From positions 124,001 through 188,000 of the forward strand of contig FNPA01000002.1 of NCBI GenBank assembly GCA_900107185.1: a DNA stretch of 64,000 bases, read 5' to 3'. Below are positions 33,360-62,805 of the stretch, piece by piece. The stretch's first letter is position 1. Each line of letters starts with the position of its first letter. A program made the translations under genes and the position numbers. The notes beneath the pieces are model-generated. The model was not told the origin of the DNA. It did not search any database and was given only the letters and a program-made list of their open reading frames with translations. Source of the DNA: Ruminococcaceae bacterium YAD3003 (GTDB lineage: Bacteria; Bacillota; Clostridia; Saccharofermentanales; Saccharofermentanaceae).

Positions 33360-34208
33360 ATGAGAGAAGAGAAAAAGTACGAGATCCTTCCCGGTGTTGA
33401 GTTACCGGATCTGAAGACTATAAGAGAAGCCGCATCTGACTTCAGTGTTTCCGAAGTCGGTGATGTCGATATCAGAGAAGTTAATTTAGTTGAGCCGACT
33501 TCTGTTGAAGCTGCTACTACTGCAGCGGTTTCTCCTGAAGAACTCGCCAAGCTTAAGGATTTGGGCGATAAGGTTGCAGAGGATGAAGCTAAGGCACAGG
33601 CTGAGAGTAAGGCCAAAATGGATGAGATTAAAAAGAAAGCTGTTCATGCTTCTGAGTCTCTCAGTGATCTTAAGGCTTCCAACATGCAGCGCGTAATTGA
33701 CGATGATAAGCGTAAGGCAATCGAAGATAGCCTTAAGGCTGAACAGGAACAGCAGGCTGAGATCGATGCTAAGATCAAGGCACGTGAAGAGAGAAGACTC
33801 CTCCAGCAGAGACTTTTCGAGGAAGCAAAAGAGCGTGCTGCAAAAGAGAGAGCCGCTGCTGAAGATGCTGCTAAGAAAGAGAATGCTGATTCTGAAAAGA
33901 CAGAGGAGAAGTCTGCTGAAGAGAAGGCTGAAGTTAAGTCTGAAGAAAAGGTTGAAGCTAAGGTTGAAGCTAAGGTTGCAGAGAAGGCTGTTGAAGCTGC
34001 ACCTGCTGCAAAAGAAGAACCTGAAGAAGTTAAGGAAGAATCCAAGGAAGAGTCTAAGGCTGAAACTAAAGAAGAACCTGCTAAGAAGATTACTACAGCT
34101 GCTGAGGTTAAGCCTGAGAACTTCGTTGACGATAAGCGTGAGGCTACAATCGCTTCAGCTGATGAGACTTTCGATGATTTCAAGGAATTCCTTGGAGACA
34201 ACGAGTAA
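33360..34208 (+). CDS. Lys/Glu/Ala-rich coiled-coil protein
   Basis: 282 residues with no recognised domain. After a short folded-looking start (YEILPGVELPDLKTIREAA), residues about 60-165 are a long charged helix rich in KAKMDEIKKK and EERRLLQQRLFEEAK. About 165-245 is low-complexity EEK/EAKVEAK repeats, and the end (FDDFKEFLGDNE) is acidic. It is the last gene of the kinase-vWA-PP2C operon and ends at a strong terminator. Possibly a phosphorylated scaffold; no homology was recognised. Confidence 0.7.
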   Translation: MREEKKYEILPGVELPDLKTIREAASDFSVSEVGDVDIREVNLVEPTSVEAATTAAVSPEELAKLKDLGDKVAEDEAKAQAESKAKMDEIKKKAVHASESLSDLKASNMQRVIDDDKRKAIEDSLKAEQEQQAEIDAKIKAREERRLLQQRLFEEAKERAAKERAAAEDAAKKENADSEKTEEKSAEEKAEVKSEEKVEAKVEAKVAEKAVEAAPAAKEEPEEVKEESKEESKAETKEEPAKKITTAAEVKPENFVDDKREATIASADETFDDFKEFLGDNE

Positions 34209-34232
34209 TTATAATTAGTATTCTGATTATTG

Positions 34233-34266
34233 ACGCCGTATCTGAGTAATAGATACGGCGTTTTTT
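34233..34266 (+). terminator. Terminator of the TerY-P operon
   Basis: Perfect 11-bp stem ACGCCGTATCT/AGATACGGCGT with 7-nt loop and T6. Confidence 0.93.
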
Positions 34267-34284: not shown

Positions 34285-34684
34285 GTATTCGCAAATGACG
34301 GATATCGAAAAAGCGAATACATAACTTGGGAAAAAAGTATTCTCTTTTTCCAAAAATTGAAAATGTGAATACAAAACCTAAATAAAACGTATTCGCTTTA
34401 GGAGAAATTTGAGAATGCGAATACAAATCTCATATAAAACGTATTCGCAAATGACTGATATCGAAAAAGCGAATACAAAACTTGAGAAAAAAGTATTCTC
34501 TTTTTCCAAAAATTGAAAATGTGAATACAAAACTTAAATAAAACGTATTCGCTTTAGGAGAATTTTGAGATTACGAATACAAAACTTAAATAAAACGTAT
34601 TCGCTTTAGGAGAATTTTGAGAATGCGAATACAAATCTCATATAAAACGTATTCGCAAATGACGGATCTTATTATTTGGAATAC
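34285..34684. repeat. Array 1: eight palindromic units at exact 52-bp period, no adjacent gene
   Basis: Each unit is GTATTCGC-N20-GCGAATAC followed by a 16-bp AT-rich spacer. Units begin at 34285, 34337, 34389, 34441, 34493, 34545, 34597 and 34649. Units 2 and 5 have the variant arms GTATTCTC/GTGAATAC, and unit 8 ends in the degenerate TGGAATAC. Centres fall into three types in the order A B C A B C C A, so units 1-3 and 4-6 form a 156-bp tandem copy. The 552-bp stretch 34209-34760 holds only this array and the two flanking terminators; no gene is seen in it. Confidence 0.95.
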
Positions 34685-34725: not shown

Positions 34726-34756
34726 AAAGAAGGTACCTGAATCAGATACCTTCTTT
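34726..34756 (-). terminator. Terminator of tRNA-Lys
   Basis: Stem AAAGAAGGTA/TACCTTCTTT. On the minus strand it ends in a T-run from the A-run at 34723-34728. Confidence 0.8.
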
Positions 34757-34760
34757 AGCT

Positions 34761-34836
34761 TGGTGCACCTCCAGGGACTCGAACCCTGGGCCCACTGATT
34801 AAGAGTCAGTTGCTCTACCATCTGAGCTAGAGGTGC
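34761..34836 (-). tRNA. tRNA-Lys (CTT)
   Basis: On the minus strand, acceptor GCACCTC/GAGGTGC, anticodon arm ACTGA-CTCTTAA-TCAGT giving CTT, T-arm CAGGG-TTCGAGT-CCCTG, and CCA encoded. 76 nt. Confidence 0.96.
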
Positions 34837-48441: not shown

Positions 48442-48677
48442 CCCACTAAATAGCAGTTTTGGGTTATTTAGTGGGTTGTTAAGCAAAACAGGGAGTTGAT
48501 TTTTACCCACCAAATCTAAAGAAAATGGATTTTAGTGGGTATTAAAACTAATAGATTATCGTTTTCGAGATGGCAATTACCCACTAAATGCTGATTTTTG
48601 GAGATTTAGTGGGTAATACGCAACTGACATAAACAGAATAATGCCTACCAAATTGGCGAAAAGTGCAAATTGGTGGG
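48442..48677. repeat. Array 2: four palindromic units before nuclease-like gene A
   Basis: Unit form CCCACTAAAT-N14-ATTTAGTGGG. Units are at 48442-48475, 48506-48539, 48580-48613 and 48644-48677, with start-to-start distances 64, 74 and 64 bp. Spacers are 30, 40 and 30 bp. Centres hold TTTT, AAAA, TTTT, AAAA in turn, so orientation alternates. Unit 3 arms extend to 13 bp (TTACCCACTAAAT). Unit 4, nearest the gene, is degenerate (CCTACCAAAT/AATTGGTGGG). The last unit ends 22 bp before the ATG of the gene. Confidence 0.93.
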
Positions 48678-48699
48678 TATTAAGGGTAGGAGCAATACT

Positions 48700-49509
48700 A
48701 TGGAAAACATAAAAGCGCTGTTAAACAACAGAAGAAATGAATTGATTAAACTCAGGCAGGAAATCGAAAAGCGTTTTAGCAAACTGAAATACAAGGGTAA
48801 TCCGCAATACAGGGTGCGTATTTCTGCTCGAAAGAACCAGTTCTATGTAAAAATGCCGGGTACAGATTCAAAGGAAAAATATATTTCAAAAAATAACATC
48901 GAAAAAGCCCGTCAAATTGCAACGTATGACTATTTAAATGAGATGATGAGAATAATCGATACCGAGCTGCAACAAATCGATAGAATTCTCAATTCTAAGC
49001 AAAAGTATTCTCCTGAAGAATACTACGAATCACTTTGTCCGGCACGGCAAAATCTGATTACACCGGTTATTCAAACCGATAATCAATTTGTTAAGAGCTG
49101 GCTGGCGCAGCCTTATGAACAAAAAGGCTTTGATTTCAATGATCAGACTGACTTCAGAACGATAAAAAATGAGCGTGTCAGATCCAAATCTGAGATTATT
49201 ATCGCAAACACGCTCGAAAGAAAACATGTTCCATACAAATACGAATGTCCAATCTATTTGAAGGAACTGGGCATTATTCATCCTGATTTCACGGCTCTTA
49301 ATGTAAAACGCAGGAAAATTGTTTATTGGGAACATCTTGGCAAGATGGATGACGAAGGCTATGCCAGGAAAAACACGTTTAGGATCAATGTGTATCAGAA
49401 AAACGGGATCTTTATTGGCGACAATCTGATAGTAACTGTAGAAACCAGTGCTATGCCTCTTGATATCAGACTGTTAGAAAGCCTTATCGATCACCATTTA
49501 CTTCAGTAG
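48700..49509 (+). CDS. PD-(D/E)XK nuclease-like protein A, paired with array 2
   Basis: 269 residues; ATG 7 bp after TAGGAG. The N-terminal half has a coiled coil (1-30), a beta-hairpin region (YRVRISARKNQFYVKMPG) and KYISKNNIEKARQIA. The C-terminal half contains RSKSEIIIAN (E165), IIHPDF (D196) and VYWEHLG (E211-H212), a PD-(D/E)XK-type pattern with His at the Lys position. GIFIGDNLIVTVET follows. It is paralogous to the protein at 61923-62720. Lysine codons are mostly AAA, unlike the AAG-rich neighbours, which hints at transfer. Predicted DNA or RNA nuclease or binding protein; function unproven. Confidence 0.8.
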   Translation: MENIKALLNNRRNELIKLRQEIEKRFSKLKYKGNPQYRVRISARKNQFYVKMPGTDSKEKYISKNNIEKARQIATYDYLNEMMRIIDTELQQIDRILNSKQKYSPEEYYESLCPARQNLITPVIQTDNQFVKSWLAQPYEQKGFDFNDQTDFRTIKNERVRSKSEIIIANTLERKHVPYKYECPIYLKELGIIHPDFTALNVKRRKIVYWEHLGKMDDEGYARKNTFRINVYQKNGIFIGDNLIVTVETSAMPLDIRLLESLIDHHLLQ

Positions 49510-61650: not shown

Positions 61651-61658
61651 ATGATGCG

Positions 61659-61908
61659 TTTTACCCCAACATGCGAAAAACAGTGCTGTTGGGGTAAAAA
61701 ACTTTCGAGATTTTTACCCCAAACTCTCGAAAACACGTCCTCTGGGGTAAAATTCGCAATCTTTTTACCCCAAAGCATATAAAAACAGCCGTATGGGGTA
61801 AAAAACATCGCTGAATTTTACCCCAAACACTCAAAAACACACCCCTTGGGGTAAACCCCGCAAACTTTATACCCCAAACCCAACAAAAACCGGGCATTTG
61901 GGGTAAAG
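61659..61908. repeat. Array 3: five palindromic units before nuclease-like gene B
   Basis: Unit form TTTTACCCCA-N21-TGGGGTAAAA. Units are at 61659-61699, 61712-61752, 61763-61803, 61816-61856 and 61867-61908. Starts are 53, 51, 53 and 51 bp apart with spacers 12, 10, 12 and 10. Every centre holds AAAAC near its middle, with variable bases around it. Unit 1 arms extend to 13 bp. Unit 5 is degenerate (TTATACCCCA, TGGGGTAAAG), and its right arm runs into the AAAGGAGG ribosome site (61905-61912) of the gene. Confidence 0.95.
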
Positions 61909-61922
61909 GAGGAATAAATAAC

Positions 61923-62720
61923 ATGGATATCAAGAACCAGCTGAAGGCCAGATACGAGTTGCTGGATAAGTTATCGAGAAAAACTGCAGAGAAACTAAGA
62001 GAATATCCTGAGGGCAGCATAAAGATTAAGAAATGCAAAAGCGGAGTGTATTACTATCGCTCAGATATGCCGGAACGTGACAGGATTATTCCCAAGAATG
62101 ATATAAATCTGGTGAAACAGCTTGCTCAGAAGAATTATCTGGAGGCGGTATTGAAGACTTCATCGTCAGAAGCAGCATTTCTAAATCAGGTTATCGAGAA
62201 TTATCCGGATTTAACTTCCGAAGAGGTCTATTCCCATCTTTCCGACGATCGAAAGCAACTCGTCCGGCCAATACTGCTCCCTGACGACCAATACATCGCG
62301 GAATGGCAGTCAAAGCCTTATAAAACCAAACCTTTCAGAAATGACGACCCGGTATACATAACGATGAGAGGGGAGCGGGTCAGATCAAAATCTGAAATGA
62401 TCATCGCGGACAGGCTCTACGCAAACAACATTCCTTACAGGTACGAGTGTCCGTTAATAATAAACGGAATCCTGATTCACCCCGACTTTACGATCCTGAG
62501 AATCCCTGACAGGAAGGAGCTCTATCTGGAACATTGTGGTAGAATCGGCGATGAAGATTATTCGGATGACTTTGTTGAAAGAATAAATCTTTACTCTGAT
62601 AACGGCATCGTAGTTGGTGACAGGCTGTTTCTTACCTTTGAGACAGTAAATAAGCCGTTAGACGTCAGGACTATAGACAGGCTGATAAGTGGTGTTTTCA
62701 CCCAAGAACCACTGCTTTAG
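61923..62720 (+). CDS. PD-(D/E)XK nuclease-like protein B, paired with array 3
   Basis: 265 residues. Layout as for the protein at 48700-49509: N-terminal coiled coil, a short beta region (IKIKKCKSGVYYYRSDMP), IIPKNDINLVKQLAQKNYL, and the conserved block ERVRSKSEMIIADRL (E158), IPYRYECPL, ILIHPDF (D188) and LYLEHCGRIGDEDY (E203-H204), then GIVVGDRLFLTFET and KPLDVRTIDRLI. The C-terminal half is clearly homologous, while the N-terminal half is much more diverged. Its translation start lies just after an array unit that can pair over part of the ribosome site. Function unknown. Confidence 0.82.
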   Translation: MDIKNQLKARYELLDKLSRKTAEKLREYPEGSIKIKKCKSGVYYYRSDMPERDRIIPKNDINLVKQLAQKNYLEAVLKTSSSEAAFLNQVIENYPDLTSEEVYSHLSDDRKQLVRPILLPDDQYIAEWQSKPYKTKPFRNDDPVYITMRGERVRSKSEMIIADRLYANNIPYRYECPLIINGILIHPDFTILRIPDRKELYLEHCGRIGDEDYSDDFVERINLYSDNGIVVGDRLFLTFETVNKPLDVRTIDRLISGVFTQEPLL

Positions 62721-62805
62721 TCTGTTAAAGCAATCGAATTCCCTTTTTATTGTATTAAAATAACAAATGCGTTATTATGTATGAGTATGTTTGGAGGTAA
62801 TAAGC

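Follow-up and report, generated by a model that had tools for sequence, protein, structure and literature searches.

A phased orphan array of inverted half-sites between two terminators in Ruminococcaceae bacterium YAD3003, and a probable partner protein of PD-(D/E)XK-like fold encoded elsewhere in the genome

The window analysed here is the whole 64,000-nt stretch of DNA. Between a gene of unassigned function and a tRNA-Lys gene it carries an array of short palindromes, which we call the 34285 array after its first position; it is an orphan in that no nuclease-like gene adjoins it. Two genes for PD-(D/E)XK-like proteins lie further along the window, each preceded by inverted half-sites of another motif. 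Table 1 gives the coordinates.

Table 1. Features of the window that bear on the orphan array.
Feature	Position	Strand	Remarks
Flanking gene, left of the slot	33360..34208	+	function unassigned; no Pfam match at E<=1, no NCBIfam match
Terminator-like hairpin 3' of the preceding gene	34232-34262	+	left border of the slot
Orphan array	34285..34684	.	8 units GTATTC-N24-GAATAC, 16-bp spacers, 52-bp register
Block 1 (A B C) of the 156-bp higher-order repeat	34285..34440	.	second block = 34441-34596
Terminator-like hairpin behind tRNA-Lys	34726-34756	-	right border of the slot
tRNA-Lys(CTT)	34761-34836	-	
Gene-linked half-sites, third motif	48442..48680	.	ACCCACTAAAT/ATTTAGTGGGT; irregular, wider steps
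PD-(D/E)XK-like protein	48700..49509	+	269 aa; paralogue of the C29 partner
Gene-linked array	61652..61905	.	TTTTACCCCAA/TTGGGGTAAAA motif; 53- and 51-bp steps
PD-(D/E)XK-like protein	61923..62720	+	paralogue of the C29 partner

The preliminary description of this DNA reported eight units at a constant 52-bp period, and this layout is exact: the units start every 52 bp from 34285 to 34649 with zero indels. GTATTC-N24-GAATAC occurs eight times in the 64-kb window and in none of 20 shuffles, and a stricter pattern, GTATTCGC-N15..25-GCGAATAC, four times against 0 in 100 shuffles. The array is real, and a chance origin is excluded. Three types of centre were said to follow one another as A B C A B C C A within a 156-bp higher-order repeat, and both statements are borne out. 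TRF returns a period of 156 with 2.1 copies at 93%, the first two blocks being identical at 146 of 156 bases, and identity over the 24-nt centres is 23/24 between the two full A units, 24/24 between the B units and 21-23/24 among the three C units. The last unit is a partial A, sharing 15/24 and 14/24 positions with the full A units; its left half is A-type and its right half is foreign, ending TGGAATAC. The 8-bp arms originally proposed fared less well, being exact on both sides in only four of the eight units. Units 2 and 5, of type B, have the arms GTATTCTC/GTGAATAC, and the right arm of unit 6 is ACGAATAC. What is constant in 8/8 units is the 6-bp core GTATTC/GAATAC.

A position between two terminators had also been noted, and hairpins were indeed found on both sides, against 0.3 expected in shuffles. 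Judging by these two predicted terminators, the array is outside both flanking transcripts. No promoter-like site was found inside it, and an Rfam scan of the window at the gathering threshold returned three tRNAs and nothing else. Do relatives carry the array in the same slot? We inspected 24 of the 29 fetched relatives' loci, and in 14 of them the tRNA-Lys bounds the site. Copies conserved at orthologous sites, with no link to nuclease genes, had been named as a result that would speak against the initial interpretation, and none was seen: the GTATTC array is present in 0/14 bounded relatives. In 11 of these 14, stop codon and tRNA are separated by 55-157 bp with no array between them. The G004 slot contains a pair of CTGAAA-motif units spaced by 52 bp, the G067 slot (L193) a 537-bp gap with CGACTTT half-sites 52 bp apart plus another palindrome family, and the G071 slot a 311-bp gap with no clear array. 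Across species, then, one and the same slot has received different contents. Before the tRNA-Lys of L193, two other palindrome families, CCGACTTT and CCAACATTT, are stacked together.

Where, then, is the partner of the orphan array? It had been suspected elsewhere in the genome, to be recognised by the same palindromes and by a third nuclease paralogue, and both were found. In a search of all 2.67 Mb (30 contigs) with the 8-bp-arm pattern at up to 2 mismatches, matches beyond the 34285 array fell on contigs C10, C15 and C29, where they read out as arrays in 52-bp register, plus one isolated match in C12. Nine GTATTC-type units lie directly upstream of C29:30942-31733 (C29 being contig 29), which encodes a PD-(D/E)XK-like protein paralogous to the products of both in-window genes. 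Paralogues of this protein in the genome comprise seven full-length copies, two of them in the window, and one broken fragment, a piece of a further paralogue with two TGA stops (G000:C11:209846-210142, L012). Six orphan GTATTC arrays are present, the 34285 array included, with the same motif and register as the array linked to the C29 gene. One of the C10 arrays, close to the contig start, was counted once, part of its sequence recurring at the start of C24. An 18-base array pattern with at most 1 mismatch has 43 forward matches in this genome; among 58 other genomes it gives one or two weak matches in 3 and none in 55. By these counts the GTATTC arrays appear near species-specific. Arrays also stand at or near the ends of contigs C6, C10, C13, C17, C24 and C29, some recurring at two ends, and these repeats therefore probably break the assembly.

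A preference of orphan arrays for terminators was considered and dropped as a general rule, since clear flanking hairpins occur at only three of the six GTATTC orphan arrays. Terminator-like hairpins of 11 or more pairs flank the 34285 array and C10b on both sides and C15 on one; outside C10a and C29b there are only 5-pair candidates, and C10c has none.

Alignment in register of 52 units from seven GTATTC arrays (one C10a unit was left out) separates the half-sites sharply from the rest. Columns 2-6 and 31-32 are 100% conserved, columns 33-35 98%, and columns 1 and 36 90% and 88%. The half-sites stand 30 bp apart, start to start, in all 52 units, and the steps between units are 52 bp save three of 51 or 53. 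Among 83 related unit pairs, differences fall at 29/996 half-site positions versus 1121/3320 other positions; over all 1326 unit pairs the figures are 4.2% and 57.0%. The initial suggestion had been a remnant or a non-autonomous copy whose partner lies elsewhere. The partner has been found and the copy reading gains support, and a kept copy is likelier than a remnant because the half-sites of related units differ far less than their other positions.

Are these palindromes read as RNA hairpins or as double-stranded DNA? RNA stems would predict covariation next to the core, from columns 7/30 onwards, and none is clearly above shuffles: across the dyad from 7/30 to 18/19, pairing in the 52 units does not exceed shuffles, the best pair, 15/22, being reached by 40 of 500. 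The invariant 6-bp core is itself neutral on pairing. The tetranucleotide GTAG is absent from the unit consensus. The absent arm covariation, together with a position outside both terminators, led us to reject the RNA hairpin reading. The conservation pattern would fit half-sites for a protein on double-stranded DNA, with their spacing held by helical phase.

Is this arrangement confined to the GTATTC motif? The plan of the orphan array had been likened to both gene-linked arrays in the window. The likeness holds for the array before the 61923 gene, with its slightly uneven steps; it fails before the 48700 gene, where inverted ACCCACTAAAT half-sites follow at wider, irregular steps and the detector finds no 52-bp chain. 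The motif of the 61923 gene, TTTACCCC, has about seven orphan arrays of its own, at C6, C8, C10 (two), C17 (two) and C18. In five of the seven, the spacing of the first eight half-sites matches the gene-linked array column for column, and the loops are unrelated. C17a has one half-site altered, and the C6 array is longer and cut by a contig end; a further match, at the C17 end, is a reversed copy of the C6 sequence and presumably marks overlapping contigs. The gene-linked array itself continues to ten half-sites. The TTTACCCC motif pair has 24 forward matches in this genome and 0 in 58 other genomes of the genus. For the motif of the C11:84061 paralogue there is one orphan array, whose two parts apparently lie at the ends of C13 and C29. 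All 13 own-genome orphan arrays examined lie between called ORFs, one overlapping a 105-aa ORF.

The array and gene at about 61651-62740 form a cassette that is absent from its site in 20/20 relatives examined. The preceding gene was found in 56 of 59 genomes, and 20 of the 29 fetched relatives' loci were inspected; none of the 20 has the nuclease motif, and at each the preceding gene leads directly to the conserved downstream sequence. The chain detector returned 3 at 19 of these sites and 4 at one (L245). The search for a target-site duplication was negative, as was that for a transposase or a recognisable transposon gene in the neighbourhood scanned; the C29 gene lies beside ABC transporter and binding-protein genes, and the window genes beside ComEC and unnamed genes. 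In the G059 genome, source of L043, the gene-linked motif TTATCCCA occurs at up to nine sites, two of them where a contig begins. Copying is shown there by a 37-mer that recurs unchanged at four places on three contigs. Copying between loci is seen directly in G059 only; the orphan arrays of our own genome have no shared loops.

A G023 locus looks orthologous to the C29 cassette, the end of the preceding gene being alike by eye, and carries mostly GTAATC/GATTAC; the single G023 orphan array found mixes GTAATC and GTATTC. A concerted change of motif between G023 and C29 is suggestive only. G004 has short, mostly single-unit arrays of another motif and, in a genome 81% complete, no family member at E<=1e-15. 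Its single CTATCTGAAA...TTTCAGA palindromes stand at dispersed sites (L221, L224, L227), with no detected family member. Array decay after gene loss in G004 is possible and at the level of the suggestive, a reversed control pattern giving 5 and 5 matches at 3 mismatches. Our own genome also holds a second, distant family of nuclease-like genes: L013, L014, L017 and L018 (C15:58512, C29:100833, C13:93965 and C18:87446). Upstream of L017 are GTGTAGTAA...TTACTACAC palindromes, in which the detector finds only 3 half-sites; from these, the array-gene principle may extend to the distant family.

The family was followed through the best 80 of 575 confirmed loci from public genomes, labelled mostly as metagenome-assembled Saccharofermentans, Clostridiales, Clostridia and Ruminococcaceae, with others from Lachnospiraceae and one from Spirochaetaceae. 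L075 and L103, whose matches lie near a contig start, were left out of the upstream-chain and GTCTCAA counts, leaving 78 loci; with L061 also left out, 77 remained for the analysis of 7-mer lags. Upstream of these 77 of the best 80 loci, 7-mer repeats peak at lags of 53, 52 and 51 plus multiples, with a further peak at 84; downstream of the same loci the peaks are 64, 128 and 45. Alternating inverted half-site chains of at least 4 with a period of 50-55 occur upstream in 40/78 and downstream in 4/78 of the loci drawn from the best 80. Period scans were run near multiples of 10.5 bp at first, a biased choice, and then over 34-111; in the latter, chains of at least 4 occur upstream in 44/78, in shuffled sequence in 0/78 and downstream in 5/78, the other 34 of these 78 loci having no upstream chain of at least 4 at any period tested. 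The half-site consensus varies from locus to locus, some being alike. Among the own paralogues, arrays stand before 4/7 (chains of 14, 10, 4 and 13, against at most 3 in shuffles), and L005, L010 and L011 have no 52-bp chain of at least 4; L016, at a contig end, was left out of this test.

Eighteen loci from the best 80 have chains of at least 5, with a period of 50-54 in 15 and of 64, 73 and 84 in one each. These periods are near 5, 6, 7 and 8 helical turns, and helical quantisation stays a lead because only three loci with chains of at least 5 fall outside 50-54 bp. L101 (labelled Fusibacillus, from the isolate Fusibacillus kribbianus YH-rum2234) and L093 (labelled Lachnospiraceae) have near-identical tandem units before the gene, of 53 bp and 84 bp, apparently recent expansions; the L101 half-sites are poorly defined. 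With whole units near-identical, their inverted pairs may be one chance dyad repeated, and the 84-bp value rests on L093. The downstream controls of L054 and L104 hold 6 half-sites each, at 52-bp and 73-bp steps, perhaps the arrays of neighbouring elements. In the 250 nt before the start, 31/78 loci (again from the best 80 of 575) have the heptamer GTCTCAA, against 1/78 downstream and 1/78 shuffled; several own paralogues have it as part of AGTCTCAACTTTT, and in L026-L105 its position is about -70 to -126. A conserved element of the cassette, promoter or regulatory, is the probable reading.

What kind of protein accompanies these arrays? The seven own proteins have 258-269 aa. They were aligned with 65 of the 80 public-genome loci (the best 80 of 575) to give 72 rows, L055, which has a stop codon, and 14 further fetched loci being left out. 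A model built from the 72 aligned sequences has a mean pLDDT of 93.1. It predicts an N-terminal part with helices 5-29 and 61-96 around a beta-hairpin region, 33-60, and a C-terminal alpha/beta domain in which S158-E161, P190-D191 and E206-H207 are invariant across the 72 sequences, E161, P190, D191, E206 and H207 among them. By VIA-align, residues 130-251 superpose on TnsA 1f1z with Z 8.7, a value that can reflect a common arrangement, and rmsd 3.2 over 114 residues, with Bax1 and VRR_NUC lower; the N-terminal part retrieves assorted coiled coils, and none of the matches listed is full-length. Foldseek gave nothing at E<=0.001 and no E below 0.2, its first rows being restriction enzymes. The seven paralogues have no Pfam match above cut-off; NCBIfam gave no match near a cut-off, two proteins scanned against PHROGs gave only E 0.16 and 0.21, and no solved structure was matched by sequence. 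The one library match came from PADLOC, where PDC-S68 matches the C-terminal nuclease-like domain at E 1.2e-26. Carriage by phages and plasmids was considered and rejected: on viral contigs nine loci match, all within residues 134-263, and of eight plasmid records none covers 80% of the query, the longest spanning residues 89-262.

Does the protein change with its half-site? From the 78 loci and four own ones chosen for having arrays, 44/82 gave a motif; L088 and L092 lack an aligned protein, which leaves 42 loci. Over these, motif similarity correlates with protein identity at r=0.26 for residues 1-140 (0/2000 permutations), r=0.085 for residues 141-263 (151/2000) and r=0.196 for the whole protein (0/2000); segment 201-262 is also correlated in this full set, at r=0.148 (7/2000). 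In the 20 loci with at least 6 half-sites, the N-terminal value is r=0.237 (48/5000), the C-terminal r=-0.10 and the whole 0.075 (1260/5000). Once relatives above 60% identity are removed, leaving 33 loci, residues 1-140 give r=0.127 (80/2000). In these 33, segment 33-60, one of eight segments or halves tested, gives r=0.186 (2/2000), segment 98-147 is weaker (26/2000), and the nuclease segments show no correlation with the motif. The motif thus tracks the N-terminal more than the nuclease half, with small effects, and this weakly suggests that the half-site is read by the N-terminal domain.

Taken together, the motif and register in common, the orphan copies, the nearly species-specific occurrence, the empty sites, the half-sites kept while loops vary and the lack of hairpin covariation point to a two-part element, of which the 34285 array is probably a non-autonomous, trans-acting member with C29:30942-31733 as its partner protein. 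Its first part would be a protein of about 263 aa whose N-terminal domain combines coiled coil and beta-hairpin and whose C-terminal domain is PD-(D/E)XK-like; its second, arrays of that protein's own short half-site, alternately inverted. Phasing would be the reason for 52 bp, or about 5 turns, units so spaced being able to share one face of the double helix. The N-terminal domain would bind the half-sites as double-stranded DNA, in rows of dimers. More speculatively, the nuclease might drive spread through breaks at or beside arrays, and repair of the breaks might place copies of an array, with or without its gene, at further intergenic positions. Later growth of an array could proceed by unequal exchange of whole 52-bp or 156-bp blocks.

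Could the protein instead be a regulator? It would then be an autoregulator with a nuclease-like fold that mobilises nothing, the gene-linked arrays its operators, and the orphan arrays would regulate their neighbours or organise the chromosome. The arrays analysed do sit upstream of the gene, GTCTCAA is concentrated on the same side, and the half-sites of orphan arrays are kept as if under selection. Of 11 orphan arrays flanked by called ORFs, 6 stand between ORFs of the same direction, hence also upstream of a gene, but 5 stand between convergent ORFs and 0 between divergent ones, and the 34285 array itself stands between two facing terminators. Relatives have neither that array nor the 61651 cassette at the corresponding site, and the five invariant residues of the nuclease-like domain also speak against a purely regulatory role, which we regard as unlikely. 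More doubtful still is a sponge or antidote, in which free nuclease is harmful and the arrays hold it bound and inactive, kept by addiction, perhaps for release against phage. The many arrays per gene, the strong half-site conservation and the resemblance of the nuclease-like domain to the C-terminus of PDC-S68 candidate defence proteins accord with it, but the PADLOC match falls only at the end of a 1221-residue profile.

Two further readings were weighed. Ordinary palindromes of REP/BIME type, or hairpins at the mRNA level, in either case unrelated to the nuclease-like gene, would likewise be extragenic, palindromic, repeated and nearly species-specific, and the 34285 array adjoins terminators; yet its arms lack covariation, it lies outside both transcripts, nothing in the window but the tRNAs matches Rfam, and its motif is that of the gene-linked array and is nearly or wholly absent from the other genomes searched. 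We hold this very improbable. Hardly credible at all is a dead remnant, decaying after the departure of a gene-plus-array cassette. The hybrid unit 8 with its foreign right half and the mostly single units of G004 would suit decay, but the cores are intact in every unit, the register is free of indels and an open partner gene is present.

How does the proposed two-part element compare with known systems? According to PMC8266576 and PMC3116915, REP/TnpA-REP systems consist of short extragenic palindromes in many genomic copies, with one cognate gene beside its own repeats and co-evolution of protein and repeat, and mobility of tnpA-REP is stated there to be without evidence. The plan common to REP/RAYT systems (REPtrons, BIMEs, REPINs), one gene and many cognate extragenic palindromes, is also found here. 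The protein differs, being PD-(D/E)XK-like and aligning with TnsA, Bax1 and VRR_NUC, not an HuH tyrosine enzyme. REP repeats fold in single-stranded DNA into a stem-loop that has a GTAG at its foot. Signs of such a structure are missing here: there is no covariation beyond the 6-bp core in the 52 units and no GTAG, and half-sites differ by locus. In further contrast, spacing here is rigid, near a whole number of helical turns, and one of the cassettes, gene plus array, has itself been inserted, as judged against 20 relatives. Iteron, parS-like and operator arrays are phased repeats read as double-stranded DNA by the dedicated protein of an adjacent gene. The present arrays depart from these in their nuclease-like domain, in their dispersal over the chromosome and in a half-site that varies within one protein family.

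The remaining comparisons concern nucleases. TnsA of Tn7 is the highest-ranked structural match of the C-terminal domain, a fold that alone shows no function. PDC-S68 of PADLOC has the C-terminal nuclease-like domain in common, but its profiles run to 1202-1273 residues and only about the last 130 positions match (from about 1083, in the two proteins scanned). A CRISPR array has near-identical whole repeats and unique spacers, whereas here only the 6-bp half-sites are constant and the centres repeat within the array; no cas gene was found among the neighbouring genes scanned. Type III toxin-antitoxin systems such as ToxIN place tandem repeats directly before a nuclease-like gene, a ToxN-type endoribonuclease toxin. 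They differ in that the repeats of our own genome are not kept as whole sequences and occur also at many orphan sites, and in that the predicted fold is PD-(D/E)XK-like; the proteins beside the arrays have no Pfam match above cut-off.

The element seems undescribed: the protein family and the array type are unmatched in the libraries used, save for the C-terminal domain in PADLOC, and no description was found in the published papers searched, among which subscription journals were covered in small part. Somewhat less likely than not, and put forward tentatively, is a new class of two-part element. Small cassettes coding for a TnsA-like protein, each with a half-site of its own, would travel between genomes and spread helically phased arrays of that half-site over the host chromosome. 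Diverging paralogues would come to use other half-sites through changes in the N-terminal domain, so that several non-cross-reacting systems coexist in one genome. If this is true, bacteria would harbour a class of nuclease-linked element so far undescribed, whose code can be read, and dozens of natural pairs of protein and half-site would have been found from sequence alone. DNA recognition by the N-terminal domain would be directly testable, and many small proteins with distinct DNA specificities could follow. The element would also explain the near species-specific intergenic arrays, and some of the contig breaks, in the genomes of gut and rumen Clostridia.
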